DNA of 32,939 nucleotides from a virus, in the IMG/VR virus record IMGVR_UViG_3300030090_002268, positions 1 to 32,939 of that record; one strand, written 5' to 3'. The notes below the pieces were generated by a model. That model made no database searches, was not told where the DNA came from, and was given only the letters and a program-made list of their open reading frames with translations. Of this stretch, positions 19,301 through 32,939 are shown one piece after another. Each line of letters starts with the position of its first letter. Within the stretch, counting starts at the first letter, position 1. The position numbers and the translations under genes are program-made.

Positions 19301-19487
19301 ACAAGACCCTATATCCCCACTACACTATACCATAATACCCCATATGTATACTATATTAACATATCTGCATTTTGGGGGGTGCCACATTATAATTTTACAA
19401 CTGCTAACTACTTTCTACATATATATGCATAAATTTTCTGCTTTTTCTGGACAGTGTGAGTGTGGACGGGAAACCTTCTTTTCTGCT

Positions 19488-19700: not shown

Positions 19701-19728
19701 TTGACTATTAACCTAAGTTAACTAACAT
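19701..19728 (+). promoter_or_regulatory. Candidate early rightward promoter with operator-like inverted repeat
   Basis: TTGACT (19701-19706) matches the -35 consensus at 5 of 6. TAACAT (19723-19728) is a possible weak -10 at 16-nt spacing. Between them lies TTAAC-CTAA-GTTAA (19708-19721), an inverted repeat of the type found at the two promoter regions flanking the Cro-like gene. The first early gene starts at 19762. Confidence 0.5.
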
Positions 19729-19761: not shown

Positions 19762-19923
19762 ATGAAACTAGAAACTAAACTTGATTATATAAAAAGAAGG
19801 TGTGAAGTAGTTGTTGGAACCGAAAAAAAAGAACTTGAAGACACTGAACTGTTGAGTGAGTGGGTTCGAGGAAGAGAATCTTTAGCAAAAGATTTGTTAA
19901 ACATAATCAATGGAGACAAATAA
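19762..19923 (+). CDS. Early hypothetical protein, 53 aa
   Basis: This is the first gene of the rightward early block. The ATG at 19762 follows AAGGA with 6-nt spacing. The 53-aa product is charged and helical (E-K-K-E-L-E-D-T-E-L-L-S-E-W-V-R-G-R), with no recognised domain. The next gene starts one base after its stop (TAATATG). As first early gene it might act in host takeover, but that is only position-based. Confidence 0.65.
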   Translation: MKLETKLDYIKRRCEVVVGTEKKELEDTELLSEWVRGRESLAKDLLNIINGDK

Positions 19924-19924
19924 T

Positions 19925-20155
19925 ATGGAAAAAGAAACTAAACAAATACTTGCACTGATTCGCAAACATAAAGTTATTTATGGCGAATTAAAAAGTTCTG
20001 CACATGATATTAGCTACATTAAATTAAATAAAAATGATTTAATAATGGAAGTAAAGAGACGACCACATAACTGGCAGTTATGCAGTTTTACCCCGCATGA
20101 TACATTGGATGCATTATATGTGGGTTATGAAGAATCTAACGACCCAGACAAATAA
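19925..20155 (+). CDS. Early hypothetical protein, 76 aa
   Basis: I chose the ATG at 19925 over 19910 because the latter lies inside the previous gene and GGAG is correctly placed 9 nt before the former. The 76-aa product alternates charged and aromatic residues (R-R-P-H-N-W-Q-L-C-S-F) and looks like a small alpha/beta fold. No family is recognised. Confidence 0.6.
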   Translation: MEKETKQILALIRKHKVIYGELKSSAHDISYIKLNKNDLIMEVKRRPHNWQLCSFTPHDTLDALYVGYEESNDPDK

Positions 20156-20168
20156 GGAGAATAAAAAT

Positions 20169-20393
20169 ATGGATAAACCAACTAGAATAAGTATAGAATT
20201 CCCAAATGAAGAATCTGCCATGCAATGGTTTAAAACTTTTCAATGGCTAGGTAATTCTTTTAATGAAGAATTAGCATTATTTCAATGTGATGCTTTGTTA
20301 GATAAAGCTATGGCAAATAAGTGGGTTGTTAAAAGCAAATCATTTAATGGCTTTGCAATTAAGAGCAAATCTGATGAGACCTACAAAAAATAG
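20169..20393 (+). CDS. Early hypothetical protein, 74 aa
   Basis: The ATG at 20169 follows a strong AAGGAG; an in-frame start at 20097 would lie inside the previous gene. The 74-aa product has a short acidic N-terminus, an A-M-Q-W-F-K-T-F-Q-W-L-G aromatic helix and a Lys/Ser-rich C-terminus. No family is recognised. Confidence 0.65.
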   Translation: MDKPTRISIEFPNEESAMQWFKTFQWLGNSFNEELALFQCDALLDKAMANKWVVKSKSFNGFAIKSKSDETYKK

Positions 20394-20403
20394 AATGGTC
20401 GAA

Positions 20404-20425
20404 ACTACCCATTAATTTGGGTAGT
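20404..20425 (+). other. Stem-loop between early genes
   Basis: ACTACCC (20404-20410) pairs perfectly with GGGTAGT (20419-20425) around the 8-nt loop ATTAATTT. The stem follows the previous stop by 10 nt. No U-tract follows, so it is more likely an mRNA 3'-end stabiliser, processing site or attenuator than a simple terminator. Confidence 0.5.
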
Positions 20426-20457
20426 CATTTGCAATATTAATTTAACAGGGAGAAAAT

Positions 20458-20778
20458 ATGTTAGCAAATAAAATTATAACACAAGCTATATCTGATGGTC
20501 ATTTACTGGCATTCAGTACACCAGAAGAAGTAGGATATTTTGATAAAACTAAGAATCTACAAAAAGCTATTGACTGCTTCAGAGCTTGTGATGATGTAGA
20601 AGTTCATATTTATTCTAGAATGTTCTGCCACAAAAACCCTAAATACAAAAAAATAGACTGGTTTTATGGATCTGCATTTGCAGACTATGGAAAATACAAT
20701 GATGAAACCATTATAGATTATTCATGCAATGGTTATGTCGACAAGTTAATAACTCTTCATGAAAAATATAACAAATAA
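20458..20778 (+). CDS. Early hypothetical protein, 106 aa
   Basis: The ATG at 20458 follows AGGGAGA. The 106-aa product has F-S-T-P-E-E-V-G-Y-F near residue 19 and is rich in Tyr and Asp (D-W-F-Y-G-S-A-F-A-D-Y-G). It has three Cys, not in a metal-binding spacing. No known family. It lies just after a stem-loop, which could tune its expression separately from the genes before it. Confidence 0.65.
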   Translation: MLANKIITQAISDGHLLAFSTPEEVGYFDKTKNLQKAIDCFRACDDVEVHIYSRMFCHKNPKYKKIDWFYGSAFADYGKYNDETIIDYSCNGYVDKLITLHEKYNK

Positions 20779-20795
20779 GAAAGGAGAATTTGAAG

Positions 20796-20954
20796 ATGAA
20801 AAAAGATTATAATTTAAATATAGATCAAATTAGCAAATTAATAGAAGAATTTTATTACAGTAGATTTTGCACGGACTATATGGAAGTTTTGCGTGATGAT
20901 AAACTTTTTAAAATTTGGTTGAAAAAAGAAATAAATGGAGTAACAAAACGATGA
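20796..20954 (+). CDS. Early hypothetical protein, 52 aa
   Basis: The ATG at 20796 is preceded by AAAGGAG at 20780-20786, 9 nt upstream. The 52-aa product is a charged, aromatic helix-rich peptide (E-E-F-Y-Y-S-R-F). Its TGA overlaps the next ATG (ATGA at 20951). No family is recognised. Confidence 0.6.
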   Translation: MKKDYNLNIDQISKLIEEFYYSRFCTDYMEVLRDDKLFKIWLKKEINGVTKR

Positions 20955-21334
20955 AATTACATTATACAAAATATAAAGAAAATTATAAAAGGTTTATATT
21001 ATCAACTATTAAAACTGATATAAACGATAAACCAATAACTAAATATTCAGATAAAGTTAATTATTTATTTAAAAGGTTTTATTCAGAATACAGTTTCATG
21101 ATACCTAGAGTTGGAAAACAAAAAGCCATATCAGAATGGTTGAGCGGCTTGGCTCTAGATTTACCATTTTATTATGATGATATTGTAGATCTTGCCGTTA
21201 AAATGGGTTCAATAAATCCAAATCCTAGTGATGCTTTAAAAAATAAGGTTGAACAAAATTACTGGGATTTTATGGCTAATATAATATTAGAAATAGAAAA
21301 AGATATATTAAACCAACAATTAAAGGGTGAATAA
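20951..21334 (+). CDS. Conserved phage hypothetical protein, 127 aa
   Basis: The ATG at 20951 overlaps the preceding stop. The 127-aa product has a pattern I associate with a widespread marine phage family: a Y-L-F-K-R-F-Y-S-E-Y motif near residue 41, G-K-Q-K-A-I-S-E-W-L-S-G-L-A-L near 59-73, a middle D-D-I-V-D-L-A helix, and N-Y-W-D-F-M-A-N near the end. Relatives occur in the early regions of cyanophages and pelagiphages; the function is unknown. Confidence 0.7.
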   Translation: MKLHYTKYKENYKRFILSTIKTDINDKPITKYSDKVNYLFKRFYSEYSFMIPRVGKQKAISEWLSGLALDLPFYYDDIVDLAVKMGSINPNPSDALKNKVEQNYWDFMANIILEIEKDILNQQLKGE

Positions 21335-21477
21335 TGAATAAATTTGATTTTTATGCTTTATGTGGCAAGTATTTAATTGATGTTAATACTGCCTTAGAAA
21401 ATAAAGAGTTGAGAAAACTTTTAAAAGATAAAGCAGATTATAAAACAATAGATAAATTTTTATTAGAACAATTTTAA
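21334..21477 (+). CDS. Early hypothetical protein, 47 aa
   Basis: The start overlaps the previous stop (TAATG at 21332-21336). The 47-aa helical peptide (N-K-F-D-F-Y-A-L-C-G-K-Y, then L-R-K-L-L-K-D-K-A-D-Y) has no recognised family. Coupled translation with the 127-aa gene suggests related use. Confidence 0.55.
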   Translation: MNKFDFYALCGKYLIDVNTALENKELRKLLKDKADYKTIDKFLLEQF

Positions 21478-21494
21478 AAAGGAATTATAAAACG

Positions 21495-21581
21495 ATGAAT
21501 ATTTTTGAAACCATAATTAATTTTATTTTTGTTGTTTTTATGTTTGCGGGTTTCTTTTTATTGTGGATAGCTTTACCATGA
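21495..21581 (+). CDS. Single-span membrane micropeptide, 28 aa
   Basis: The ATG at 21495 follows AAAAAGGAAT. Nearly all 28 residues are hydrophobic (F-I-F-V-V-F-M-F-A-G-F-F-L-L-W) and form one transmembrane helix. The TGA overlaps the ATG of a second such peptide (ATGA at 21578). Single-span phage micropeptides can modify host membrane proteins or lysis; the role here is unknown. Confidence 0.5.
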   Translation: MNIFETIINFIFVVFMFAGFFLLWIALP

Positions 21582-21658
21582 AGACAATAAAATTTTTAAC
21601 TGTAATATTTGCATCGGTTTTTTTGGTGCAAATGTTACTTTCTTTAATTTTAATGTAA
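21578..21658 (+). CDS. Single-span membrane micropeptide, 26 aa
   Basis: The ATG at 21578 lies within the preceding stop. The 26 residues start M-K-T-I-K-F and continue as one hydrophobic helix (L-T-V-I-F-A-S-V-F-L-V-Q-M-L-L-S-L-I-L). Positive N-terminus and hydrophobic core give an N-in orientation or an uncleaved signal anchor. Paired with the previous micropeptide. Confidence 0.5.
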   Translation: MKTIKFLTVIFASVFLVQMLLSLILM

Positions 21659-21667
21659 GGTTATAAA

Positions 21668-21916
21668 ATGAACAAAACTAAACAATGGAAAACAATAGAG
21701 GAAATAGAAAGTAATATTATCAGAAAAGTTCAAAAGCTAGTTTATACTTATAAAGATAAAAACATAGCAGCAAATATATCTGTTGACATAAGGAATGATA
21801 AAACTGTCTGCAACATTGAAACTAATAAAAAAAGTGAAGTAAAAATTTTAGATACAAAAAAAAATATTGAGTTGCAAGTATTAGAAATATTTGTTAATTT
21901 AGTTAACGAAAGTTAA
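21668..21916 (+). CDS. Early hypothetical protein, 82 aa
   Basis: The ATG at 21668 is preceded by AAGG at 9 nt. The 82-aa product is Lys/Asn/Ile-rich with an N-terminal helix (I-E-E-I-E-S-N-I-I-R-K-V-Q) and then alternating beta strands (A-A-N-I-S-V-D-I-R-N-D-K-T-V-C-N-I-E). No family is recognised. Its last codons contain TTAAC-GAAA-GTTAA (21903-21916), like the operator pattern near the Cro-like gene. Confidence 0.6.
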   Translation: MNKTKQWKTIEEIESNIIRKVQKLVYTYKDKNIAANISVDIRNDKTVCNIETNKKSEVKILDTKKNIELQVLEIFVNLVNES

Positions 21917-21920
21917 TATT

Positions 21921-22088
21921 ATGGATGAACAAACAAAACAATTACATAGGTATCTTACTAAAGATCAGTTAATAGAAAAACTTATTACATATGAAAAAGG
22001 TTTTAATATCTTAGTACATTACTTTGATTATATTCCTGAAGAGGAAAAAGATCAGGTTGATAATAAACTTAAAGAATTAAACTTGTGA
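21921..22088 (+). CDS. Early hypothetical protein, 55 aa
   Basis: The frame from 21921 starts 4 nt after the previous stop. The 55-aa acidic helical product has L-T-K-D-Q-L-I-E-K-L near residue 12, then an E-E-E-K-D-Q-V-D-N-K-L-K-E-L end. There is little SD; ribosomes may continue from the preceding gene. No family is recognised. Confidence 0.5.
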   Translation: MDEQTKQLHRYLTKDQLIEKLITYEKGFNILVHYFDYIPEEEKDQVDNKLKELNL

Positions 22089-22100
22089 GAAAGGATAATT

Positions 22101-22259
22101 ATGCATGAATTACTGAAAGACATTGAACAATTAGAAATGATGCATCAAGCATTATCTAATCAAATATCAGAACTAGAAAAAATAATAGCGGATAAAAAAC
22201 AACAGTTTAAAGATTACGATGATTATAACACCAAACAAATGGAAGAAAATGATGACTAA
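22101..22259 (+). CDS. Early coiled-coil peptide, 52 aa
   Basis: GAAAGGA precedes the ATG at 22101. The 52-aa product is one coiled coil (L-L-K-D-I-E-Q-L-E-M-M and I-S-E-L-E-K-I-I-A-D-K-K-Q-Q) with an acidic end. It overlaps the next gene by 8 nt. No family is recognised. Confidence 0.55.
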   Translation: MHELLKDIEQLEMMHQALSNQISELEKIIADKKQQFKDYDDYNTKQMEENDD

Positions 22260-22482
22260 AAAATATAAAATATATAAAAGAACTGTCCACGAGGATCGAG
22301 GAATCTATGTGAGCTTTGGCACTCAGGAAGATGTTAAGGATTGGAAAGAGGAGGAACAGGAGTGGATTGAGCAAGACCTAGGTGTTGGTGATGATACCAT
22401 TGAGCAGTTAGGAATAACATCCTCTGATCCAAACATTGGTAAAATATTAAATCTTATTAACGATAACATTGATAAATATTAA
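22252..22482 (+). CDS. Early hypothetical acidic protein, 76 aa
   Basis: Two adjacent ATGs exist (22249 and 22252). I chose 22252 because GGAAG (22241-22245) is then better spaced. The 76-aa product begins basic (T-K-K-Y-K-I-Y-K-R) and becomes very acidic (D-W-K-E-E-E-Q-E-W-I-E-Q-D-L). No family is recognised. Acidic early proteins can mimic DNA, but nothing specific supports that here. Confidence 0.6.
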   Translation: MTKKYKIYKRTVHEDRGIYVSFGTQEDVKDWKEEEQEWIEQDLGVGDDTIEQLGITSSDPNIGKILNLINDNIDKY

Positions 22483-22494
22483 TTGGGGAAAAAA

Positions 22495-22683
22495 ATGAGT
22501 AGTTATAGCATGAACGAAAAAGAAAAAGAAGAGTATGCAATTAAAGAAACCATACCATTGATAGATGGTGAAGATATTAGAGAGATAGTTGGTGAATTAA
22601 GAAAACAAGTAAGTATAATTTTACATGATGATGATGAAATAAAAGAATTGATTTACTGCTACTATGATGATATACAACCTTAA
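22495..22683 (+). CDS. Early hypothetical acidic protein, 62 aa
   Basis: The ATG at 22495 follows GGGG; the earlier in-frame TTG at 22483 is less likely. The 62-aa product is acidic, with E-K-E-K-E-E-Y-A-I near residue 7 and an H-D-D-D-E-I-K-E-L helix. It is the last gene of the early rightward block, ending at a convergent junction with a terminator-like inverted repeat. Confidence 0.6.
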   Translation: MSSYSMNEKEKEEYAIKETIPLIDGEDIREIVGELRKQVSIILHDDDEIKELIYCYYDDIQP

Positions 22684-22746
22684 CATAGCTAATACATTCC
22701 TTGTAAATTAATAATTGTTCTATATTGTATTAGCTATGACCTTTTT
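22684..22746 (+). terminator. Long inverted repeat and T-tract at the convergent junction
   Basis: CATAGCTAATACA (22684-22696) pairs over 13 bp with TGTATTAGCTATG (22726-22738), with a 29-nt loop. CTTTTT (22741-22746) follows 2 nt later on the + strand, so it may terminate the rightward early transcript. The right arm covers the stop codon of the leftward HNH gene. The low G+C stem and large loop make it an atypical terminator. Confidence 0.5.
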
Positions 22747-23015
22747 AATAAAGCCATAACCTCTTTTAATAAATCCTCCTGACTTCCCCATTTTTCGGAA
22801 AACGATTTAGGACTGTGGTGGTACGATTCATTGGATAAACGATGGTGATACCCACAAAGTGGAATACTTCTATTGTACGGCTCTTTCCTGCCCATTCCAG
22901 TATGGTTTTTAATGTGATGTATCTCCGGAGGAGTATCAACACCTAATTTGCGGCAAATTATACAACCTAGTTGAAACAATCTGTCATAATGTGCCTTCTT
23001 ATTTTTTGAAACCAT
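22734..23015 (-). CDS. HNH endonuclease, Ref-like
   Basis: The 93-aa protein has a zinc-type HNH arrangement. C18-x2-C21 comes first, then P-P-E-I-H-H-I near residues 29-35 (catalytic-type His pair), G-x-G-R-K, I-P-L-C-G-Y-H-H-R (51-59), and a terminal Y-H-H-S-P-K-S-F-S-E-K-W-G. This order resembles the RecA-dependent nuclease Ref of phage P1 and related DUF968 proteins. A role in recombination or host DNA nicking is possible. It is the last gene of the leftward replication operon and overlaps the previous gene by 17 nt. Confidence 0.75.
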   Translation of the reverse strand: MVSKNKKAHYDRLFQLGCIICRKLGVDTPPEIHHIKNHTGMGRKEPYNRSIPLCGYHHRLSNESYHHSPKSFSEKWGSQEDLLKEVMALLKRS

Positions 23016-23352
23016 AGTTTTTTGCTTCTTGATTTATATTAAACACATTTGTTTTCCATGATTCAAATTTCATTTGTATTATTTTAAGTTCCCATTGCAG
23101 CTTAATACATTGTTCTTCTGCAATGCTAAGTTGTTTTATGTGTTCTTTATATTTTTGATGTGATCGTGCCATCATCTCACATTTCGCAACACTAACTTTA
23201 TCATTACTGGATTCATAGGATTCTCTCATAAGGTCCGCCAGAACTATATGCCTGCTATGTTCAAGTAAAGTATGCCTAGATTTTGCTTCAGAATATTTTT
23301 GTGTAATCTTTCTAATTTCTTCTAGTCTTTTTTCAATTATATTTTCATTCAT
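22999..23352 (-). CDS. Conserved coiled-coil phage protein
   Basis: The 117-aa protein is almost fully helical. The pattern S-R-H-T-L-L-E-H-S-R-H-I-V-L-A-D-L-M-R-E near residues 25-44, then L-Q-W-E-L-K-I-I-Q-M-K-F-E-S-W-K-T near 86-101, recurs in phages beside replication and recombination genes. Function is unknown. ATGAATGA at its start overlaps the preceding 49-aa gene by 8 nt. It lies between a zinc peptide and the HNH nuclease. Confidence 0.65.
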   Translation of the reverse strand: MNENIIEKRLEEIRKITQKYSEAKSRHTLLEHSRHIVLADLMRESYESSNDKVSVAKCEMMARSHQKYKEHIKQLSIAEEQCIKLQWELKIIQMKFESWKTNVFNINQEAKNYGFKK

Positions 23353-23494
23353 TTTTTTTTCTCTTTCTATTCAAACAATCAGAACAAATAATAGTATGTT
23401 TTTTTGTTTGAAACATTTTAATAGCATTAAATAGTTGTTCAGTTGATTTGTAATATTCTTTGTGATTACAAATACTACACTTTATATGAATCAT
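23345..23494 (-). CDS. Small zinc-knuckle protein, 49 aa
   Basis: The ATG at 23494 overlaps the helicase stop (ATGA) and opens 49 codons. Two pairs of cysteines, C6-x2-C9 and C37-x2-C40, would bind one zinc ion, and the C-terminus is basic (N-R-K-R-K-K). The gene is invisible to a 60-codon cut-off, but the cysteine spacing and coupling support it. Such a protein could bind nucleic acid beside the helicase. Confidence 0.65.
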   Translation of the reverse strand: MIHIKCSICNHKEYYKSTEQLFNAIKMFQTKKHTIICSDCLNRKRKKNE

Positions 23495-24984
23495 AACCTT
23501 TTATATTGTTTAGATTTTGCCTGTTTAATTTGTAAGTATTTTAAAAAACCAAGAACTTCTTTTGTTGGTGCTTGTGGTAACACTTGTTTTGAGTGGGGAA
23601 AATGTCCAAACTTATCCTTAAATTTATGCGAACTCCATCCGATATTATACCCTTTTTGTTTAGCTATAAACAATAATTGTGCATACCATTTTTTCTTATC
23701 ATGTGCTTTTGTTTCTTTTGGTTTACTTAATTCTTTTAGTCTGCCTTGTTTTATTAATAATTTAACTGATTTTTGTGTAGGTTTGTAAGAACAATTAGGA
23801 CACTCAGGATTTTCTTTTGTGGGTCTGTATATAAAATCACACTGAACACATGAAAAAGGTTGTTTACTTATAGGTTGCATTTCTTTTTTCTTTCTCTCTT
23901 TTTTGTCTTTGCTTACAGTTAACTTCCAAAATCTGTCATCATCAGGAAAACCAAATCCCTCATAGATACATCCTGCATGGTCAAATATAATTGTGTTGTC
24001 CTTATTCTCATGCGGTCTAAGTGATCTGCCTATCATCTGTAACCATAACCCTAATGATTTTGTTGGTCTTGCAAGTACAACGGCAGAAACTTTTGGAAGA
24101 TTCCAACCCTCTGTCAGAACCATACAGTTAGAAAGTACCTGAATTTTATTTTTTTTCATCGCATCTAAAACTGTTTCTCTTTCTATTTCTTCCATTGTGC
24201 CATCTATATGTCCAGATGGTATGCCGTTTTGCTGAAACATTTTGGCTATATATTTAGAATGAGCAACACTAGATGCAAATACAACTGTGGGTCTGTTGTT
24301 TGCATGATCTATGTAATGTTGGACTAAATCTCCAACAAGTTTTGTAGTATTCATTCTTCTAGATAACTCTTTTTTTTCATAATCACCTTGTACTATTTGT
24401 ATTTTTGACAAATCAGGCAAAGTTGGTGCAAAATATTTTGTGTTTACTAAATAACCTTGTTTTTGTAATGATTTAACTGTACCGCATTCAACTAAATCTT
24501 CATAAATATTACCAAGACCTTTGCCATCTCCCCGAATTGGTGTTGCCGTAAGACCGATGATAAAACTATCTGGATACATCTCAATCAAATCACTAAACGA
24601 TTTACTTGTTGATCGGTGAGCTTCATCAAGAATAATTAAATCACCTTTAGGTTTATGAAAATCAATATTCTTTTTTCTTGCCGTAAAAGTTTGTATACTG
24701 GCAACCTGAACATTCTCAAACTGTGTCTCTGGTTGTCCACTCATGAGTACACCAGATGTAATACCATAATCAAATAATTTGTTTATTGTCTGATAAACTA
24801 ACTCTCTTCTGTGTGCTACAAATAAACATTGTTTGTTTTTTTCTAATGCCTTTTGTATCATAGCACAAGCTATAACAGTTTTACCTGATCCAGTTGGACT
24901 TACTAATAAAACTTTTTTATTACCTTTTTTAAAAGATGTTCTTATATCATCAATCGCTGTGTTTTGATATTCACGCAGTTCCAT
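23491..24984 (-). CDS. Superfamily 2 DEAD/DEAH-type helicase (replication)
   Basis: The 497-aa helicase starts with Met-Glu-Leu-Arg-Glu-Tyr-Gln, a usual beginning for such phage helicases. I chose 24984 over 25002, so it overlaps the primase stop by 14 nt. Motif I is S-P-T-G-S-G-K-T (29-36), motif II D-E-A-H (120-123), motif III T-A-T-P (146-149), and motif VI Q-M-I-G-R-S-L-R-P (316-324). A C-terminal zinc ribbon C379-x2-C382 and C395-x2-C398 follows, typical of phage replicative SF2 enzymes. Next to the primase, it is the probable replication-fork or initiation helicase; no DnaB-type helicase is present. Confidence 0.93.
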   Translation of the reverse strand: MELREYQNTAIDDIRTSFKKGNKKVLLVSPTGSGKTVIACAMIQKALEKNKQCLFVAHRRELVYQTINKLFDYGITSGVLMSGQPETQFENVQVASIQTFTARKKNIDFHKPKGDLIILDEAHRSTSKSFSDLIEMYPDSFIIGLTATPIRGDGKGLGNIYEDLVECGTVKSLQKQGYLVNTKYFAPTLPDLSKIQIVQGDYEKKELSRRMNTTKLVGDLVQHYIDHANNRPTVVFASSVAHSKYIAKMFQQNGIPSGHIDGTMEEIERETVLDAMKKNKIQVLSNCMVLTEGWNLPKVSAVVLARPTKSLGLWLQMIGRSLRPHENKDNTIIFDHAGCIYEGFGFPDDDRFWKLTVSKDKKERKKKEMQPISKQPFSCVQCDFIYRPTKENPECPNCSYKPTQKSVKLLIKQGRLKELSKPKETKAHDKKKWYAQLLFIAKQKGYNIGWSSHKFKDKFGHFPHSKQVLPQAPTKEVLGFLKYLQIKQAKSKQYKRL

Positions 24985-25768
24985 ATCTATTCCAAATATC
25001 ATTAAGTTGAAACACTATTTCGTTTGGTGATTCAGGTGGGTTACACATTCTTCCAAAGTCTAATGCTTCATCTCTAGCTTTTTCATATGACACACCTCTT
25101 TTTCTCATGGCAATTAACATAGAAACTAATTTTTGATGTCTGTTTCCCTGTCCTGTACCTTGTATTGTACCAGTAAATTCTTTGTGTGTCTTTGTGTATT
25201 CTTTAAATATTTTTTTTTCAGGTTTAATAAGATTCAAACCCTCTCTAATTTCTGACATTTTATAAGGACTACTATACTCACTATAAATTATTTTTACTGG
25301 ATAGGGTTTAACTTTGTTATGATAAAATCCGGCAACTCTCATAATTCTAGGCAGATCAATAATTACTGGATCACTATTAAATTTATTAGCTAATGCTTGT
25401 TGGTATAATCTAAATGATTCTTTTGGCATATCAGATACAAGCCAATAAGTATGATATTTATTTGGACTTGTATTTACAATAAGTTGTGGATTTATTTGAA
25501 AACTTTTTGGTAATGGTGTGCCGTCAAAATCACAAAATACTGCCCGTACTTTTGTTATGTGTTTGGTTGTTCTGCCTTGTAAGTTTGTTTCATTAACTGT
25601 AAAATAAACACCTGCACCTTGTTGATTAAGTTTTGATAATTCATCTATGTGTTCATCTATTGTTCCATGTAATTGTTTGATAAGTTTTTTGTTTCTGCCT
25701 TTATCACAAAAAGTTTGAAAGCTATGTTTATCACCAAATGCAGATAGAAATTTTTCGTATGTTGTCAT
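24971..25768 (-). CDS. RepB-type DNA primase (archaeo-eukaryotic primase fold)
   Basis: The 265-aa protein resembles the RepB-type primase domain. The pattern is G-A-G-V-Y-F-T-V-N near residues 51-59, V-F-C-D-F-D-G with the D80/D82 metal pair, then N-T-S-P-N-K-Y-H-T-Y-W with His106. Next come D-L-P-R-I-M-R-V-A-G-F-Y-H-N-K near 138-152 and a C-terminal helical part with G-T-G-Q-G-N-R-H. The start at 25768 overlaps the preceding stop (ATGA), which favours it over 25777. It would lay primers for host DNA polymerase, since the genome encodes none. Confidence 0.88.
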   Translation of the reverse strand: MTTYEKFLSAFGDKHSFQTFCDKGRNKKLIKQLHGTIDEHIDELSKLNQQGAGVYFTVNETNLQGRTTKHITKVRAVFCDFDGTPLPKSFQINPQLIVNTSPNKYHTYWLVSDMPKESFRLYQQALANKFNSDPVIIDLPRIMRVAGFYHNKVKPYPVKIIYSEYSSPYKMSEIREGLNLIKPEKKIFKEYTKTHKEFTGTIQGTGQGNRHQKLVSMLIAMRKRGVSYEKARDEALDFGRMCNPPESPNEIVFQLNDIWNRYGTA

Positions 25769-26136
25769 TTTTTCCACCTAATTTTTGCACCTAGTTTGCC
25801 CGCTTTTGATCTTTTCTTTCTATTGTATTCTTGTTCTTTTCTCTCTTCTTCTGCCTGTATACAAATAAGATATGTTTTACCATGACATTCTTTTTTTTGA
25901 AACAAGTGTTCTATCTTTGGAAATATCTTTTCTATTTTATCTAATCTACAGTTACACATTCTTGATATGGTTTCTAAATTATATTCTATTTTAAAACCTC
26001 TCCAACAATAACAGTACAATAATATGTATGCACCTTGTTGCTCTAGAGATAAATCCATTCTATCTGGATTGGCTATCCAATCAGTTGCATAAAATTGAAA
26101 TGATGGAGATTGTTCTTGATGTGTAGATTTTCTCAT
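25765..26136 (-). CDS. DUF1376 replication-associated protein
   Basis: The 123-aa protein has the DUF1376 pattern: S-F-Q-F-Y-A-T-D-W near residues 12-20, then L-S-L-E-Q-Q-G-A-Y-I-L-L-Y-C-Y-C-W and a C-terminal S-K-A-G-K-L-G-A-K-I-R-W. Members of this family commonly precede phage replication genes and may help load helicase or bind the origin; the role is not settled. It is the first gene of the leftward replication operon. Its ATG lies only 36 nt from a perfect TTGACA, so the mRNA may be leaderless. Confidence 0.85.
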   Translation of the reverse strand: MRKSTHQEQSPSFQFYATDWIANPDRMDLSLEQQGAYILLYCYCWRGFKIEYNLETISRMCNCRLDKIEKIFPKIEHLFQKKECHGKTYLICIQAEEERKEQEYNRKKRSKAGKLGAKIRWKK

Positions 26137-26171
26137 AAATTAACATTAAGTTAATAATTAACTTATGTCAA
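26134..26171 (-). promoter_or_regulatory. Replication-operon promoter with operator-like inverted repeats
   Basis: Read leftward, TTGACA (26171-26166) is a perfect -35 box. A weak -10, TAATGT, follows at about 17 nt. Between and beyond lie AAGTTAAT-A-ATTAACTT (26148-26164, arms exactly complementary) and TTAAC-ATTAA-GTTAA (26140-26154). A repressor bound there would block RNA polymerase. The ATG at 26136 would fall near +1. Confidence 0.6.
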
Positions 26172-26199
26172 ATTGTTTTTTATTTTGTAAATAATTAAG

Positions 26200-26266
26200 A
26201 AGATATAGATATCTTGTATGTAGATGTAGGTGTAGTTGTAGTTGTAGTTGTAGATGGAGATGAAGG
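26200..26266. repeat. Hexamer repeat array with adjacent palindrome; candidate replication origin
   Basis: Eight consecutive hexamers of the form TGTAGN (with two divergent copies, TGGAGA and TGAAGG) fill 26219-26266. They are preceded by the palindrome AAGATAT-AG-ATATCTT (26200-26215). The array lies between the replication operon and the repressor gene in noncoding A+T-rich DNA. Iteron-like repeats, a palindrome and neighbouring primase/DUF1376 genes are what an origin would show. Function is inferred. Confidence 0.5.
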
Positions 26267-26283
26267 GGATAAAATCGCATTGG

Positions 26284-26315
26284 CAAAAAATAACACAGCT
26301 ATAGCAATGCTATGT
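26284..26315 (-). terminator. Possible terminator of the repressor gene
   Basis: Leftward, ACATAGC (26315-26309) pairs with GCTGTGT (26299-26293) with one G-U pair and a 9-nt loop. A T-rich run (TATTTTTTG, about 26292-26284) follows. It lies 31 nt after the stop of the Cro-like gene. The core also contains ATAGCA-A-TGCTAT (26301-26313). Confidence 0.5.
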
Positions 26316-26345
26316 CTCTGTAATCCTTTGTGAGTGCGGGTTTGA

Positions 26346-26543
26346 TTAGAATTTTAAGTCTGGTCTAATGTAGTCTAGTTGAAAGTCTCCAAAATTTGCT
26401 ATTTGAAATGCTCTTAATGGTGGCACCACTTCCCATTTGGAAACTGCTGGATGTGAGATGTTTAACAAAACAGATAGATTCTTACCACCATACTTTGCTA
26501 CAATCTCTTTTTTGCGTTCTTTAGCTAATTCGTATTTATTCAT
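26346..26543 (-). CDS. Cro/YdaS-like helix-turn-helix repressor
   Basis: The 65-aa DNA-binding protein has a helix-turn-helix at about residues 18-40 (G-G-K-N-L-S-V-L-L-N-I-S-H-P-A-V-S-K-W-E). It is followed by V-P-P-L-R-A-F-Q-I-A and a terminal Y-I-R-P-D-L, a typical end of Cro-type and YdaS-type regulators. It stands alone between two control regions, and its upstream DNA carries a divergent promoter. The start lies 35 nt from a TTGACA, so the message may be leaderless, as lambda cI is from PRM. It probably controls its own gene, the replication operon and the SSB-like operon. Confidence 0.82.
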   Translation of the reverse strand: MNKYELAKERKKEIVAKYGGKNLSVLLNISHPAVSKWEVVPPLRAFQIANFGDFQLDYIRPDLKF

Positions 26544-26577
26544 AAGTTAATTTTAATTAATTATTAACTAATGTCAA
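26541..26577 (-). promoter_or_regulatory. Repressor-gene promoter (leftward)
   Basis: A perfect TTGACA reads leftward at 26577-26572. The following 35 nt closely resemble the same stretch before the gene at 26136: both read TTGACAT-AGTTAAT and end T-TTATG or C-TTATG. No good -10 is visible in the A+T-rich spacer. AAGTTAA (26544-26550) abuts the start codon. It faces away from the rightward TTGACA at 26585 with only 7 nt between the two boxes. Confidence 0.5.
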
Positions 26578-26584
26578 TAAGATG

Positions 26585-26614
26585 TTGACAATATAATTTT
26601 AGTATGATTATACT
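26585..26614 (+). promoter_or_regulatory. Strong sigma70-type promoter of the SSB/exonuclease/lysis operon
   Basis: TTGACA (26585-26590, 6 of 6) is followed after 18 nt by TATACT (26609-26614, 5 of 6). This is the best promoter in the window and drives the genes from 26650 on. It suggests recognition by unmodified host RNA polymerase, in line with the lack of a phage polymerase. Confidence 0.8.
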
Positions 26615-26633
26615 TAACTTTAAATTAAGTTAA
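26614..26633. promoter_or_regulatory. Operator-like palindrome over the transcription start
   Basis: TTAACTT (26614-26620) and AAGTTAA (26627-26633) form a perfect 7-bp inverted repeat around TAAATT. It overlaps the last base of the -10 box and the expected start of transcription, an ideal place for repression by the Cro-like protein encoded 70 bp away. Confidence 0.6.
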
Positions 26634-26649
26634 AGTAAAGGATACCAAC

Positions 26650-27237
26650 ATGAGTTTAATAGCAAAAGAAAATATACAAAGTGAATATCCACAAGTGCCT
26701 ACTGGTGTACACAAGGCACGATGTGTAAAAATTATTGATCTAGGTACACAAAAACAGGATTACCAAGGTGATATATCATGGAAAAAACAATTTATGATTA
26801 TTTGGGAAATACCTGAATATACAAACAATGAAAACGAACCTCTTACACTCAGTAAGTTTTACAACCTATCTTTGCATGAGAAATCTAATTTAGCAAAAGA
26901 TTTACAATCATGGAGAGGTAAGGCAATATCATCAAGCGAGAAAAGAGGTTTTGATATAACATCTTTATTAGGTGATGCTTGTCAGTTAAATGTTATAGAG
27001 GGCAAGAATGGTAGACCAAAAATATCTAATGTTATGAAAATAAAAGATACTGATGTTAGTTCTGAACAAATTATTCCAAGTTTCTTCTTCAGCATTGCTG
27101 AATATCAAAAAGGCAATAAAGAAAAATTTAACCAGTTATCAGAAGGTATAAGAAATATTATACTAAAAGCAAAAGAGTTTGATGATACAGATCATGGAAC
27201 AAGTGATATGAACCACGATACTAATGTACCATTTTAG
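26650..27237 (+). CDS. Single-stranded DNA-binding-like protein
   Basis: The 195-aa protein has a pattern known from many phage replication regions. It begins Q-V-P-T-G-V-H-K-A-R-C-V-K-I-I-D-L-G-T-Q (residues ~15-34), with W-E-I-P, then L-S-L-H-E-K-S-N-L-A-K-D-L-Q-S-W-R-G-K (~71-91) and G-F-D-I-T-S-L-L-G. These proteins are often uncharacterised or annotated as SSB-like. The C-terminus is acidic and ends N-V-P-F, like the D-I-P-F tip of bacterial SSB that recruits partner proteins. That supports an SSB role, though an OB fold is only inferred. First gene of its operon, with AAAGGA before the ATG. Confidence 0.7.
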   Translation: MSLIAKENIQSEYPQVPTGVHKARCVKIIDLGTQKQDYQGDISWKKQFMIIWEIPEYTNNENEPLTLSKFYNLSLHEKSNLAKDLQSWRGKAISSSEKRGFDITSLLGDACQLNVIEGKNGRPKISNVMKIKDTDVSSEQIIPSFFFSIAEYQKGNKEKFNQLSEGIRNIILKAKEFDDTDHGTSDMNHDTNVPF

Positions 27238-27247
27238 GGGGTTATAA

Positions 27248-27442
27248 ATGAGTATTTTATTTGCGATTTTGTTTTTCTTAAACATTATACATCCGGAAAA
27301 TGTAGAGTTTGTAGAAACAACAATAGAAAACAATAAAAAGTATGAGTGTTCTTTTGTATATAAAGGCTTATCAAGACCAACTTCAGATAAAGCTATGACC
27401 TTATATGGATACACATTATTTAAACAATCTTGTAAACAATAA
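27248..27442 (+). CDS. Small exported or membrane-anchored protein, 64 aa
   Basis: The ATG at 27248 follows AGGGGG. Residues 2-14 are hydrophobic (S-I-L-F-A-I-L-F-F-L-N-I-I), a short signal peptide or anchor; the rest is polar with two Cys (about C34 and C62) that could form a disulphide. No family is recognised. Its stop overlaps the next ATG (TAATG). Periplasmic fate is inferred. Confidence 0.6.
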   Translation: MSILFAILFFLNIIHPENVEFVETTIENNKKYECSFVYKGLSRPTSDKAMTLYGYTLFKQSCKQ

Positions 27443-27738
27443 TGAAAGAGTCTGTCTTTTTGTTTTTACTTATAGGATCATTAGATACACTAGAAGAAAA
27501 ATATGTAGGCAGACTTAATTCCTGCGAGGATACAATAAACCTTATGCAAAAATTAGAAAAAAAATATAAAAACATAAACGGGTATTTGTGTGTAGATTCA
27601 AGACTAGCAAGAAAAAAGTTTATGCACAAACCCACACCGCAAGAGGAGTTTATTATTAAAGAGATAAAAGAACTTACACTACCACCAAAACCGGTGGGCA
27701 AACCTTTAATACTAAAAAAAAAATATGAAACTAACTAA
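27442..27738 (+). CDS. Small exported protein, 98 aa
   Basis: The start overlaps the previous stop. A hydrophobic N-terminus (V-F-L-F-L-L-I-G-S-L) is followed by a charged helical body with two Cys and a Pro/Lys-rich end (L-P-P-K-P-V-G-K-P). It pairs with the 64-aa exported protein. Its last 14 nt overlap the exonuclease gene. Lysis (spanin-like) or superinfection exclusion would fit two exported proteins, but no lipobox or known motif is present. Confidence 0.6.
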   Translation: MKESVFLFLLIGSLDTLEEKYVGRLNSCEDTINLMQKLEKKYKNINGYLCVDSRLARKKFMHKPTPQEEFIIKEIKELTLPPKPVGKPLILKKKYETN

Positions 27739-28624
27739 TTTATGTAACCTTCCCAAAGTAATTGAACGAGCAGTAGCTAACGATCCATATGACTCAGATG
27801 GTTCAGACATATCTGCTACTCGTTTAGTTGCTCCTGCAAGGGTAGTTGCTTTACAAAAAAAATATGCAGATGAAATAGAAGAAGATGTAGCTGATAGGAT
27901 ATGGTCTTTATTAGGTCAATCTGTACATCATATTATAGAACGATCAGCAAGACCAGAAGATATATCTGAGTTACGATTGTTTCACAAAAATAAAGAGATA
28001 ACAAATGACTGGACAATATCCGGAACATTTGATTATTTGCAATCTGATGGTGTGCTTGTTGATTTCAAAGTTACCTCTGCATGGTCCGCTTTAGATGCAG
28101 TAACAAAAGGCAAAAAAGAATGGGAACAACAATTAAATATTCTTGATTATCTGTGTAAAAAAAATCCTGACAAAATAAATAATATAGAGGTAAAAAAATT
28201 ATACATTATGGCAATTCTTAGAGATTGGTCAAAAAGTAAAGCTAAAGAACCTGATTCTAATTATCCGAAGAAACAAGTAATAGTAATACCTATTAGAAAA
28301 TGGAATACGGCTGAACAGGAAGCATTTATAAAAGAACGAGTAAAGGCTCATCAAGATGCACAAATCAAGTCTGTAGCTCCTGTATGCTCTTCGGAAGAAA
28401 GGTGGACTAGACCAGATCAGTATGCTGTTATGAAAAAAGGTAAAAAAGCTGCTTTACGATTACTTTCATCACAAGAAGATGCAAAAAAATACATGGAACA
28501 AAAAAATATGTTGGACAATAAAGATTTTAGTATTGTTCACAGAAAAGGGAAAGATGTAAGATGTGAAGAATATTGTAATGTAAATAAGTTTTGTGATTAT
28601 TATAATAAAGAATTAGCACTATGA
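27725..28624 (+). CDS. PD-(D/E)XK exonuclease, Cas4/RecB-like
   Basis: The 299-aa nuclease has a G-Q-S-V-H-H-I-I-E helix (64-72). Motif II/III follows: G-T-F-D-Y-L (Asp103), then V-L-V-D-F-K-V-T-S-A-W (Asp113, Lys115), and a Q-Q-L-N-I-L motif (Gln136). Four cysteines, C221 and C280-x3-C284-x5-C290, are arranged one plus three as in Cas4 and AddB iron-sulphur nucleases. It would resect DNA ends for recombination, or process host DNA, working with the SSB-like protein upstream. The start at 27725 overlaps the upstream gene by 14 nt. Residues 240-249 recur in the next gene. Confidence 0.85.
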   Translation: MKLTNLCNLPKVIERAVANDPYDSDGSDISATRLVAPARVVALQKKYADEIEEDVADRIWSLLGQSVHHIIERSARPEDISELRLFHKNKEITNDWTISGTFDYLQSDGVLVDFKVTSAWSALDAVTKGKKEWEQQLNILDYLCKKNPDKINNIEVKKLYIMAILRDWSKSKAKEPDSNYPKKQVIVIPIRKWNTAEQEAFIKERVKAHQDAQIKSVAPVCSSEERWTRPDQYAVMKKGKKAALRLLSSQEDAKKYMEQKNMLDNKDFSIVHRKGKDVRCEEYCNVNKFCDYYNKELAL

Positions 28625-28818
28625 AAAAAAATGCTTTACGATTGCTTTCATCAAAAGAAAATTTAAAAAAAATGAAATGTTGGTATTGCAATACGGAATT
28701 AATTTGGGGTGGAGATCATGATTGTGAAGATGATTCAGAATATCTAATTGAAACAAATCTGTCTTGTCCTCAATGCAATGCATTTGTAATGGTGTACTTG
28801 CCTAAAGATGAAAAATAA
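28621..28818 (+). CDS. Zinc-ribbon protein with a duplicated N-terminal extension
   Basis: The 65-aa protein has C20-W-Y-C23 and C49-P-Q-C52 with W-G-G-D-H-D between, a recurrent small phage zinc ribbon that usually begins at M-K-C-W. Here the ATG at 28621 (overlapping the exonuclease stop) adds 17 residues. They contain A-L-R-L-L-S-S and nearly copy residues 240-258 of the exonuclease, also at DNA level. Whether the extension or an internal start at 28672 (no SD) is used is unclear. The role is unknown; nucleic-acid binding is plausible. Confidence 0.7.
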   Translation: MKKNALRLLSSKENLKKMKCWYCNTELIWGGDHDCEDDSEYLIETNLSCPQCNAFVMVYLPKDEK

Positions 28819-28827
28819 TATAACATT

Positions 28828-28938
28828 ATGACTATGATGGATAAAATAAAAAAGTTTTTGCAAAGTTTTACAGTAATCAGTATGTATGATTGGACAGTTC
28901 TGGTACTACTTATTATTATTCTATTAAACACATTATAA
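28828..28938 (+). CDS. Small single-span membrane protein, 36 aa
   Basis: The frame from 28828 encodes a basic amphipathic start (D-K-I-K-K-F-L-Q-S-F) and a transmembrane helix (W-T-V-L-V-L-L-I-I-I-L-L). Similar short proteins with M-Y-D-W-T-V occur before terminase small subunits in marine phages. It might assist lysis together with the holin and lysozyme downstream, but the function is unknown. It ends one base before the next ATG. Confidence 0.55.
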   Translation: MTMMDKIKKFLQSFTVISMYDWTVLVLLIIILLNTL

Positions 28939-28939
28939 C

Positions 28940-29332
28940 ATGGCAAAAAGTTTATCAAAAATGCAATCTGATTTTATTTATTATTTTAGTCAGACAGGCA
29001 ATGCTACTCAATCAGCAATCAAAGCAGGATATAAAAAAACAAATGCTGATAAAATGGGATATGAACTTAAAAATAGATACTCTCAACAAATTGAAGATGA
29101 AATAAAAAAACAATTATCTGGATCTGTTCCAATGGCACTTAACAGAATAGTAACTTTGGCTGAGAATGCAAAGCAAGAAAGTATATCTTTACAAGCGAGT
29201 AAAGATATTTTAGACAGAGCTGGTTATCAGGCTGTTAATTTGCACAAAGATGTTACTGATGAAAGATCAGACAAAGACTTGCAAGAAGAACTTAATAGTA
29301 TACTAGATGGCATAAAAGGAAAACCAAACTAA
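28940..29332 (+). CDS. terS: Terminase small subunit
   Basis: The 130-aa protein has the classical DNA-binding N-terminus of small terminases: F-I-Y-Y-F-S-Q-T-G-N-A-T-Q-S-A-I-K-A-G-Y (helix-turn-helix, ~12-31), then N-A-D-K-M-G-Y-E-L-K-N-R near 35-46. A helical oligomerisation region follows, and an acidic C-terminus. It recognises phage DNA for packaging by the large subunit at 17679-19091, which is encoded on the other strand about 10 kb away. Here it precedes the lysis genes, and its ATG is 1 nt after the previous stop. Confidence 0.88.
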   Translation: MAKSLSKMQSDFIYYFSQTGNATQSAIKAGYKKTNADKMGYELKNRYSQQIEDEIKKQLSGSVPMALNRIVTLAENAKQESISLQASKDILDRAGYQAVNLHKDVTDERSDKDLQEELNSILDGIKGKPN

Positions 29333-29333
29333 A

Positions 29334-29729
29334 ATGTTAGCATCAAGTGTAATAGGAGTTGCCGGGAAGATTCTTGATAAATTTATTGAGGACAAAGACC
29401 TTAAAACCAAGATAGAAGGTGAAATAAGAAAAGAAACATTAGCTATTTCACAGGCACAAGCTAACGCAAATCTAGAACAGGCTAAACATCCATCATTGTT
29501 TGTTTCAGGGGCAAGACCAGCAATAATGTGGGTATGTTGTTTAGGCATAGCATGGCAATACTTTTTAGGACCTATACTTACATGGGTTTTTGCAATGTGG
29601 ATGCCTGAAATACAACCTCCACAAATAGAACTAGAAGGTCTATTGGGTCTTACAATGAGTCTTTTGGGATTAGGAGCAATGAGGTCATACGAAAAGACTA
29701 AAGGTGTAGCAAGAAATAATATGAAATAA
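29334..29729 (+). CDS. Holin (3-TM, GTA-type)
   Basis: The 131-aa membrane protein has an N-terminal charged helix, then K-H-P-S-L-F-V-S-G-A-R-P-A-I-M-W-V (~52-67), a second hydrophobic segment (L-G-P-I-L-T-W-V-F-A-M-W), and a third (L-L-G-L-T-M-S-L-L-G-L-G) ending A-M-R-S-Y-E-K-T-K-G-V. This is the pattern of three-span holins found in marine phages and gene transfer agents. It lies two genes before the lysozyme and would form the membrane lesions that release it. Confidence 0.85.
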   Translation: MLASSVIGVAGKILDKFIEDKDLKTKIEGEIRKETLAISQAQANANLEQAKHPSLFVSGARPAIMWVCCLGIAWQYFLGPILTWVFAMWMPEIQPPQIELEGLLGLTMSLLGLGAMRSYEKTKGVARNNMK

Positions 29730-29730
29730 T

Positions 29731-29916
29731 ATGTTTGCATTTATTAAAAATTTATTTTTAAAAAAAAAGAAGAAACCTCTTAAAATAACACATTTGCAAA
29801 TTATGACTAAATCACAATTATTTAAATTAGGCAAAAAACATAATCTTAGTTTTGATAAAAAAATACAAAAATCAGAACTTGTACACATTCTGTTTGATTA
29901 TTTGAAAGATAGATAA
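29731..29916 (+). CDS. Rho-N/SAP-like small protein
   Basis: The 61-aa protein starts with a hydrophobic/basic segment (F-A-F-I-K-N-L-F-L followed by five Lys). Its C-terminal 35 residues fit the two-helix Rho-N/SAP fold (M-T-K-S-Q-L-F-K-L-G-K-K-H, then K-S-E-L-V-H-I-L-F-D-Y-L). Such domains bind nucleic acid or capsid proteins. It lies between holin and lysozyme; the function is unknown. Its last base is shared with the lysozyme start (TAATG). Confidence 0.6.
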   Translation: MFAFIKNLFLKKKKKPLKITHLQIMTKSQLFKLGKKHNLSFDKKIQKSELVHILFDYLKDR

Positions 29917-30341
29917 TGTATGAAGATTTGAAAAAAAGAATAAAGTATCACGAGGGTTTTAGAGACCATGTTTATTTGGACAGCCTTGGTAAAAAAACTA
30001 TAGGGTATGGTCACCTATGTAGAAGTGATGAAAGTTGGGATATGGACAAGGCATATGATATAGAAGTGTTGGAAGAGTGTTTTGAAAAAGATTTTCAGGT
30101 TGCTGTCAATGGTGCGGAAACTTTAATTGGTAAAATCAATATGAACAATACAGCAAAAGAAGTAATTATTGAAATGGTTTTTCAACTAGGCAAAACAGGT
30201 GTAAAAAAATTTAAAAAAATGTGGGCAGCCTTTAAAAAAGGGGATACGAAAGAAGCTGCAAAACAAATGTTAGATAGTAAATGGGCAGACCAAACATCGC
30301 AAAGAGCAGAACATCTTGCATCTATAATACGATCCATCTAA
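29916..30341 (+). CDS. Endolysin: T4-type lysozyme (GH24 muramidase)
   Basis: The 141-aa enzyme hydrolyses peptidoglycan. The catalytic triad is visible as Glu13 (Y-H-E-G-F-R), Asp22 (Y-L-D-S-L-G) and Thr28 (K-T-I-G-Y-G-H), with the spacing of T4 lysozyme E11/D20/T26. A C-terminal lobe follows with M-V-F-Q-L-G and W-A-D-Q-T-S-Q-R-A (typical substrate cleft Q-R-A). No signal peptide, so it depends on the holin. Last gene of the rightward operon; its stop directly abuts that of the convergent gene. Confidence 0.94.
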   Translation: MYEDLKKRIKYHEGFRDHVYLDSLGKKTIGYGHLCRSDESWDMDKAYDIEVLEECFEKDFQVAVNGAETLIGKINMNNTAKEVIIEMVFQLGKTGVKKFKKMWAAFKKGDTKEAAKQMLDSKWADQTSQRAEHLASIIRSI

Positions 30342-31722: not shown

Positions 31723-32939
31723 CTATTGAAATGCTGTTAATGTTCCTACGCATTGATTTACACTAAGCACTATACTTGTGCCTGTTGGTATTAAAACTGT
31801 TGCCATTGCTCTTCTGGCACTTTGTGTATCATCAGAAAAAATACCAAAAAATGTGCTTGTATTATGTGTCATGCCAAGTGGTGAGGTTGTTCCTGAAGTT
31901 ACCTTATAACTTATTTCTGTTTTATCACTTGCGTTACCACCAATAATAAATACTGGTATATTAGCTGTCAAACTAGATATAGTAAAAGTGCCTGTGCTAG
32001 TTGTTGTGGCTTTTTGTGTTACTGTAGAACCAGCTGGAGTTTGAAAACTAGGTACGGCACCTGCTCCTGCACTTGTTAATACTTGACCAGAACTACCTGT
32101 AGCAACTGCAACTGGGTTTCCAGATGTATCATATGAAATTAAATTTCCATCTGTACCAGAAGCCATTTTTGCTAAAGTAATTGCGTCATCTTGAATCTCT
32201 GCTGTAGCTACACCATCATCTTTAATAGTTACAGCACCACTACTTACCGAAAAATTGTCACTACTAAATGATGCTATGCCTTTATTTGAAGATGAAGCAT
32301 CTTCTCCCGCAATCGTTACTGTGTCAGTCGCACCGCCTGATGTATCTATACCTTCACCACCAGCTATAGTTAAAGTGTTACCATTGCTTATGGTCTGATT
32401 ACTTCCAGAATCACCCGCTAATGTAAAGCTAGTCATATCTCCTGTACCATCTGCACCTGAATATGCAAAATGTACACTCACTCCATCAAGATTAGAAAAT
32501 GATCCAGAACTTGTCAGATGCGTCACAGCTACCTTACTGTATCCACTAGCATCAGTTACTGATCCCGTTACCTTAAAAGTCGCATAAGTTGCTGGCGTTG
32601 CTTCTTTGGTAACAGTAATAATACCCCTTGCCACAGCATTCGTAACATCGTCAAATGATTGTACAAAAGTTGTAATATCTGCACCCGCATCATCAGCATC
32701 ATCAATAAATAATACGGATACACTTGATAAAGTGCCGTTGTTAAAAGCAATCTTACCTGATCCCGGATCTGCGTCACTTGTTGAATTACTAAAAGTCATA
32801 GAAAGTTGTGGGTTTGCTCCTGTTGCACCCGTACTACCAGTGCTACCGGTACTACCGGTGCTACCGGTGCTACCAGTATCACCCTTGCTTCCAGAAGCTG
32901 TAAAGTGTACTGATAGTTCATCAGCTGCACTAAAGGTAT
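31723..32939 (-). CDS. Tail fibre protein, C-terminal part (gene begins at the left end of the window)
   Basis: This is the continuation of the gene starting at 1292. No start codon is needed here: the frame enters from 32939, passes through the 98-bp overlap and a collagen-like linker (about seven G-x-T triplets), and continues to the stop at 31723. It encodes the third ~118-residue repeat (S-D-A-D-P-G-S-G at its start, ending H-F-A-Y-S-G-A-D-G). A Gly/Ser/Thr-rich shaft and a receptor-binding end follow. The shaft motif M-A-S-G-T-D-G-N-L-I-S-Y-D and G-Q-V-L-T-S-A-G-A-G-A are common in marine phage fibres. A Met at 32799 could be mistaken for the start. Full length is 802 aa. Confidence 0.9.
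   Translation of the reverse strand, partial: TFSAADELSVHFTASGSKGDTGSTGSTGSTGSTGSTGATGANPQLSMTFSNSTSDADPGSGKIAFNNGTLSSVSVLFIDDADDAGADITTFVQSFDDVTNAVARGIITVTKEATPATYATFKVTGSVTDASGYSKVAVTHLTSSGSFSNLDGVSVHFAYSGADGTGDMTSFTLAGDSGSNQTISNGNTLTIAGGEGIDTSGGATDTVTIAGEDASSSNKGIASFSSDNFSVSSGAVTIKDDGVATAEIQDDAITLAKMASGTDGNLISYDTSGNPVAVATGSSGQVLTSAGAGAVPSFQTPAGSTVTQKATTTSTGTFTISSLTANIPVFIIGGNASDKTEISYKVTSGTTSPLGMTHNTSTFFGIFSDDTQSARRAMATVLIPTGTSIVLSVNQCVGTLTAFQ
32840..32939. repeat. Right copy of terminal direct repeat
   Basis: Identical to bases 1-98, with one mismatch at 32938 corresponding to base 99. It includes the period-9 Gly-Ser-Thr tract (32831-32875), which is slippage-prone and may be where the assembler opened the circle. 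Confidence 0.9.

Follow-up and report, generated by a model that had tools for sequence, protein, structure and literature searches.

The Cro protein of Salmonella phage P22 is recorded as turning off early gene expression in lytic growth, and the annotated OL and OR operators of this phage read TTAAG-N4-CTTAA or close to it. In the telomere phages PY54 and phiKO2, Cro has one operator only and occurs alongside a prophage repressor (PMC4488713, PMC4997575). We analysed a viral stretch of 32,939 nucleotides (IMG/VR record IMGVR_UViG_3300030090_002268; hereafter the window), a linear contig that is possibly incomplete, in which TTAAC/GTTAA repeats had been noticed around a gene for a Cro-like protein. 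The window phage is an ocean podovirus related to one infecting SAR11 bacteria, the isolate Pelagibacter phage EXVC032P Baldr, whose genome is complete and whose record names a SAR11 strain as host. We found no report on regulation in Baldr in the published literature.

The Cro protein and predicted operator geometry in the window

The 65-residue protein matched the Pfam P22_Cro family (PF14549) with 40.9 bits against a curated cut-off of 30.2, which confirmed its predicted Cro-like character. The family profile matches P22 Cro in the PDB (E 1.6e-5), and P22_Cro was detected above the cut-off in 16/16 genomes searched, with one copy per genome. The AlphaFold2 model (pLDDT 93.6) is composed of five helices in an all-alpha Cro fold; its best alignments were with the Cro proteins of Xfaso 1 (Z 7.8) and P22 (Z 7.3), and N15 Cro gave Z 5.9; Z-scores below 8 would be weak by themselves, and the family assignment is carried by the sequence match. 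Judged by this match, the protein is a P22-type Cro. Its recognition helix, assigned by homology as ISHPAVSKW, is invariant in 22 sequences, and the operator described below is invariant alongside it while protein identity drops to 62%.

The original prediction placed TTAAC/GTTAA repeats at 26140–26164, 26614–26633 and 19708–19721, and we located all of them at promoters. Their spacers had been described as varying from 3 to 10 nt; instead, the window repeats fit a single 5-4-5 palindrome, TTRAC-N4-GTTAA (consensus RTTAACNTANGTTAAY), and the spacers of 3, 5 and 10 arise for the most part from reading these sites in a different register. The AAGTTAA word reported before the cro start is present, but it belongs to a full predicted operator at 26564–26577 rather than being a stray half-site (Table 1).

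Fixing the spacer at 4 bases and allowing up to one mismatch gave seven window sites matching TTAAC-N4-GTTAA, four of which are intergenic, an approximate class because genes were called with a simple ORF rule. These four occupy four of four promoters, namely those of the early block (19708), the replication operon (26158), cro (26564) and the SSB-like gene (26620). Shuffling done separately for each gene and each intergenic stretch gave a mean of 0.29 intergenic sites, and none of 1,000 shuffles reached four. The clustering at promoters emphasised by the original prediction was therefore upheld, whereas the TTAAC half-site showed no enrichment; with 87 occurrences in the window compared with 131 expected from shuffles it is rarer than expected and thus uninformative by itself. 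When the window was scored alone, TTAAC-N4 ranked third of 330 permuted motif/spacer controls. Because the motif was defined after inspection of the data, we took the relatives as a more independent test.

A consensus promoter scan gave no promoter excess (68 versus 75 in shuffles), so we called promoters from their position, conservation and operators. The −35 hexamer TTGAC itself forms the left half-site in the promoters of cro and the replication operon; such halves are partly promoter sequence, which counts against reading them as operators. The spacer-5 repeat at 26140–26154 is real and is retained in the closest relative, G001, where the −35 operator of the replication promoter is absent, a point against the operator model, and this repeat alone remains. 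Its retention there means that the replication promoter may have a second operator of variant spacing.

Three window sites (17679, 21373 and 21903) fall inside genes. The first of these, 17679–17692 (TTAAAATAAGTTAA, one mismatch), lies within the terminal part of the gene for the large terminase subunit and has counterparts inside coding sequence in three relatives (G010 32925, G011 9270 in extract coordinates, and G019 23408); we set it aside as an operator, as this in-gene conservation is probably protein conservation. The 21903–21916 site has no counterpart in G001.

Table 1. Position and composition of the features discussed in the text (window coordinates).
Feature	Position	Strand	Sequence elements	Remarks
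P22_Cro-family repressor gene (65 aa)	26346–26543	−		Pfam P22_Cro (PF14549)
cro promoter, predicted	−35 26577–26572; −10 26555–26550	−	−35 TTGACA; −10 TAAAAT	
cro-promoter operator, predicted	26564–26577	−	TTGAC-ATTA-GTTAA	Left half is the −35 hexamer
Replication-operon operator, predicted	26158–26171	−	TTGAC-ATAA-GTTAA	Overlaps the promoter's −35
Second replication-promoter operator, candidate	26140–26154		TTAAC-N5-GTTAA	Spacer 5
SSB/lysis promoter, predicted	−35 26585–26590; −10 26609–26614		−35 TTGACA; −10 TATACT	
SSB/lysis-operon operator, predicted	26620–26633	+	TTAAA-TTAA-GTTAA	Directly 3' of −10
Early-block operator, predicted	19708–19721	+	TTAAC-CTAA-GTTAA	Perfect palindrome in −35/−10 spacer; −35 TTGACT 19701–19706
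Decayed operator	19356–19369	−	TGCAG-ATAT-GTTAA	Upstream of packaging/structural operon
Perfect palindrome, function uncertain	21903–21916	+	TTAAC-GAAA-GTTAA	End of early ORF, 5 nt before next ORF
Early block of small ORFs, putative target	19762–22683	+		
Replication operon, putative target	22734–26136	−		DUF1376-like/primosomal, RepB-type primase, DEAD helicase, HNH
SSB/lysis operon, putative target	26650–30341	+		SSB-like, exonuclease, terminase small subunit, holin, lysozyme

Conservation of the sites in related phages

The Cro protein used as query identified 53 viral contigs and Baldr; the helicase as search bait recovered two loci only. Sites were searched in 20 records, comprising 19 contigs and Baldr, which together with the window make 21 genomes. 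Exact TTRAC-N4-GTTAA was present in 20/20 relatives, and the backward control pattern occurred 0–1 times per strand. Over the 21 genomes, 95 of the 139 sites with at most one mismatch were intergenic, with intergenic DNA amounting to 7%, although these genomes are related to one another and their counts are non-independent. The other spacers between 0 and 12 gave 2–28 intergenic sites each; none came near N4, and the smaller excesses at 0, 5 and 10 were partly overlaps of N4 sites. Outward repeats (GTTAA-N-TTAAC) were rejected for inconsistent spacing. Across eight dereplicated genomes including the window, the motif had 34 intergenic sites compared with 13 for the best of 329 other controls, and with spacer 4 it ranked first of the 330 permuted motif/spacer combinations once relatives were scored. 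Positions outside the search were also informative (central TA, 72% each; flanking R, hence the form of RTTAACNTANGTTAAY), and the inner C/G and inverted symmetry of the sites are kept across genomes. Three pelagiphages without P22_Cro had 3, 0 and 1 intergenic sites.

The repeats are conserved at homologous promoters in the relatives, as the original prediction required of genuine operators. In 15 of 21 genomes the cro dyad begins 34–35 nt upstream of the start codon (ATG), its left half being the −35 TTGAC in most of those, and the cro promoter carries TTGAC-TTTA-ATTAA in five further genomes. In Baldr, the cro-side site lies upstream of a two-gene operon, before the gene preceding cro. The gene divergent from cro is SSB-like, and its promoter has operators in most relatives, positioned between −35 and −10 or just past −10. 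Early promoters of relatives have sites in the −35/−10 spacer or at −35, and the window's 19708 site has counterparts at G001 5167, Baldr 38928 and others. Replication promoters carry sites, at varying positions, in most genomes where the replication gene follows cro. An exact TTGAC-TTTA-GTTAA also occurs in Baldr at 32459–32472, within an annotated ORF (32360–32731) between cro and the replication genes; because of this site, the ORF may be a misannotated promoter region.

The relatives add a predicted operator that the original prediction did not include, at the late promoter, which serves the packaging/structural operon. A perfect palindrome lies upstream of the block leading into the terminase large subunit in 15/15 aligned relatives, which were chosen because the site had already been found there. 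It usually begins 18–19 nt before a −35-like TTGAC, TTGTAC or TTGAAC, that is, upstream of the promoter. Among the other five relatives, G014 shares the late site of G018, the G003 and G019 records are incomplete or truncated, and perfect sites occur in the late region of G004 and G007, outside the 15-relative alignment. The window has lost one half of this palindrome.

Genome context, proposed mechanism and alternatives

Consistent with the original description of a virus without integrase, we found tyrosine (PF00589) and serine (PF00239) integrases in 0/21 and 0/16 genomes, respectively. CI-type Peptidase_S24 was found in 0/16 genomes and ParA was not found, and the controls of these searches were recovered. 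HTH_3 was not found in the window, and a helix-turn-helix domain was absent in the ten early-block ORFs scanned. One contig (L032/G011), which at 67,849 bases is roughly double its relatives in length, encodes an HTH_3 protein at 61639; it could represent either a larger genome or an assembly chimera. T7-type RNA polymerase was not found in eight records of the group, with HTVC011P and HTVC019P detected as positive controls, and these phages therefore probably need the host RNA polymerase. The terminase small subunit gene (28940–29332) lies in the SSB/lysis operon, distant from that of the large subunit on the opposite strand. Between cro and the replication operon, the minus strand contains a CAACTA/CATCTA/CTTCAT-type repeat tract (26210–26265) followed by a conserved ACAAGATAY-like word, both present in most relatives inspected; the tract could be a replication origin or encode a small Ser/Thr/Pro-rich peptide.

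Based on the conserved sites, Cro very probably binds RTTAAC-N4-GTTAAY placed on the main phage promoters. We consider it likely that this is an autoregulated P22-type Cro turning down host-polymerase promoters in lytic growth. A Cro dimer would bind the palindrome, with TTGAC tolerated as the left half. At the promoters of cro, the replication operon, the SSB-like gene and the early block, the predicted sites overlap the −35, fall in the spacer or lie immediately past −10, and Cro binding would therefore block host RNA polymerase. Cro would thereby limit its own synthesis, and early and replication transcription would be turned down as infection proceeds. Its role would resemble that of P22 Cro in lytic growth, but with no CI partner, in phages without a detected RNA polymerase gene, and it is reasonable to regard Cro on host-type promoters as a timing device. 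The core of the original prediction, a Cro-type repressor with operators shared by several promoters, is well supported at the sequence level. Its suggestion that the circuit times expression also appears likely, but the carrier state offered with it gained no support.

Such a carrier or plasmid-like quiescent state is improbable, even though one repressor acting at every main promoter could shut down the whole genome and the replication genes are under its predicted operators. Integrase, ParA and CI-type S24 peptidase were not found, Baldr was recorded with its SAR11 host strain, and stable silence is hard to reconcile with a cro promoter that itself carries an operator. Recognition of the sites by a regulator from the host, for instance CtrA (TTAA-N7-TTAA), would accord with CtrA sites in Alphaproteobacteria phages, which consist of TTAA elements (PMC9437464). 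The spacing is wrong for a CtrA regulon, however, as TTAA-N6-TTAA was intergenic in 62/119 cases over the 21 genomes versus 21/54 for N7, so that N6 and not N7 is enriched; the preserved inner C/G and inverted symmetry, together with the few sites in the three other pelagiphages, also make this reading very improbable. Half-sites are common in A+T-rich DNA and TTGAC is a promoter element, but chance or promoter composition is hardly credible as the source of the sites, because relatives show spacing specificity; the pattern was not reproduced with shuffles, permuted motifs or other spacers, nor with the backward control or in other pelagiphages.

The late palindrome suggests an extension of repression by Cro that we regard as possible but rather unlikely, in which one Cro would time the whole infection as an early-to-late switch, repressing the cro promoter together with those of the early block, replication operon and SSB-like gene and activating the late promoter from upstream. 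Lambda CI activates transcription from an upstream site, and the perfect late palindrome of the 15 aligned relatives is mostly upstream of the −35-like element. Its dyad centre, however, is near −48 compared with the classical −42, the late −35 and −10 are predicted only, and extra GTTAA half-sites within the late promoter of several genomes fit repression; in the window, half of the late operator is gone. If true, one repressor would fill the role that a phage-encoded RNA polymerase has in T7-like pelagiphages.

Comparison with characterised Cro systems

The repression model provides a whole-genome regulon, predicted to operator level, for marine podoviruses whose promoters and timing are otherwise unannotated and among which we found one SAR11 isolate, Baldr. 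It also offers one way in which transcription may be ordered in phages where no RNA polymerase gene is detectable. The T7-like pelagiphages HTVC011P and HTVC019P share podovirus-type genes and Pelagibacter hosts with this group, but they carry an RNA polymerase and an annotated integrase, P22_Cro was not found in them, and they have 0–1 intergenic sites. In contrast to the lambdoid CI/Cro switch, neither a CI-type prophage repressor nor integration machinery was detected here, and such a CI-free system bears on what Cro does alone. The telomere phages N15, PY54 and phiKO2 resemble this system in the all-helical Cro fold and in having Cro as lytic repressor; compared with the single operator of PY54 and phiKO2, four to five promoters carry sites here, and a prophage repressor was not seen.

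P22 Cro shares with the window protein its family and five-helix fold, and the predicted operators here, like the annotated ones of P22, are 5-4-5 palindromes with TTAA halves. P22 also has an operator in the −35/−10 spacer of its early right promoter, and more than one early promoter has operators. Unlike in P22, a CI/c2 partner and integrase were not seen here, the −35 doubles as a half-site, and predicted operators also lie at the SSB and, in relatives, late promoters. The inner base of the half-site is C here and G in P22, and the recognition helix reads SHPAVSKW rather than SDAAVSQW. SHPAVSKW/TTAAC would thus provide a second recognition-helix/half-site pair for a Cro code, beside SDAAVSQW/TTAAG of P22.
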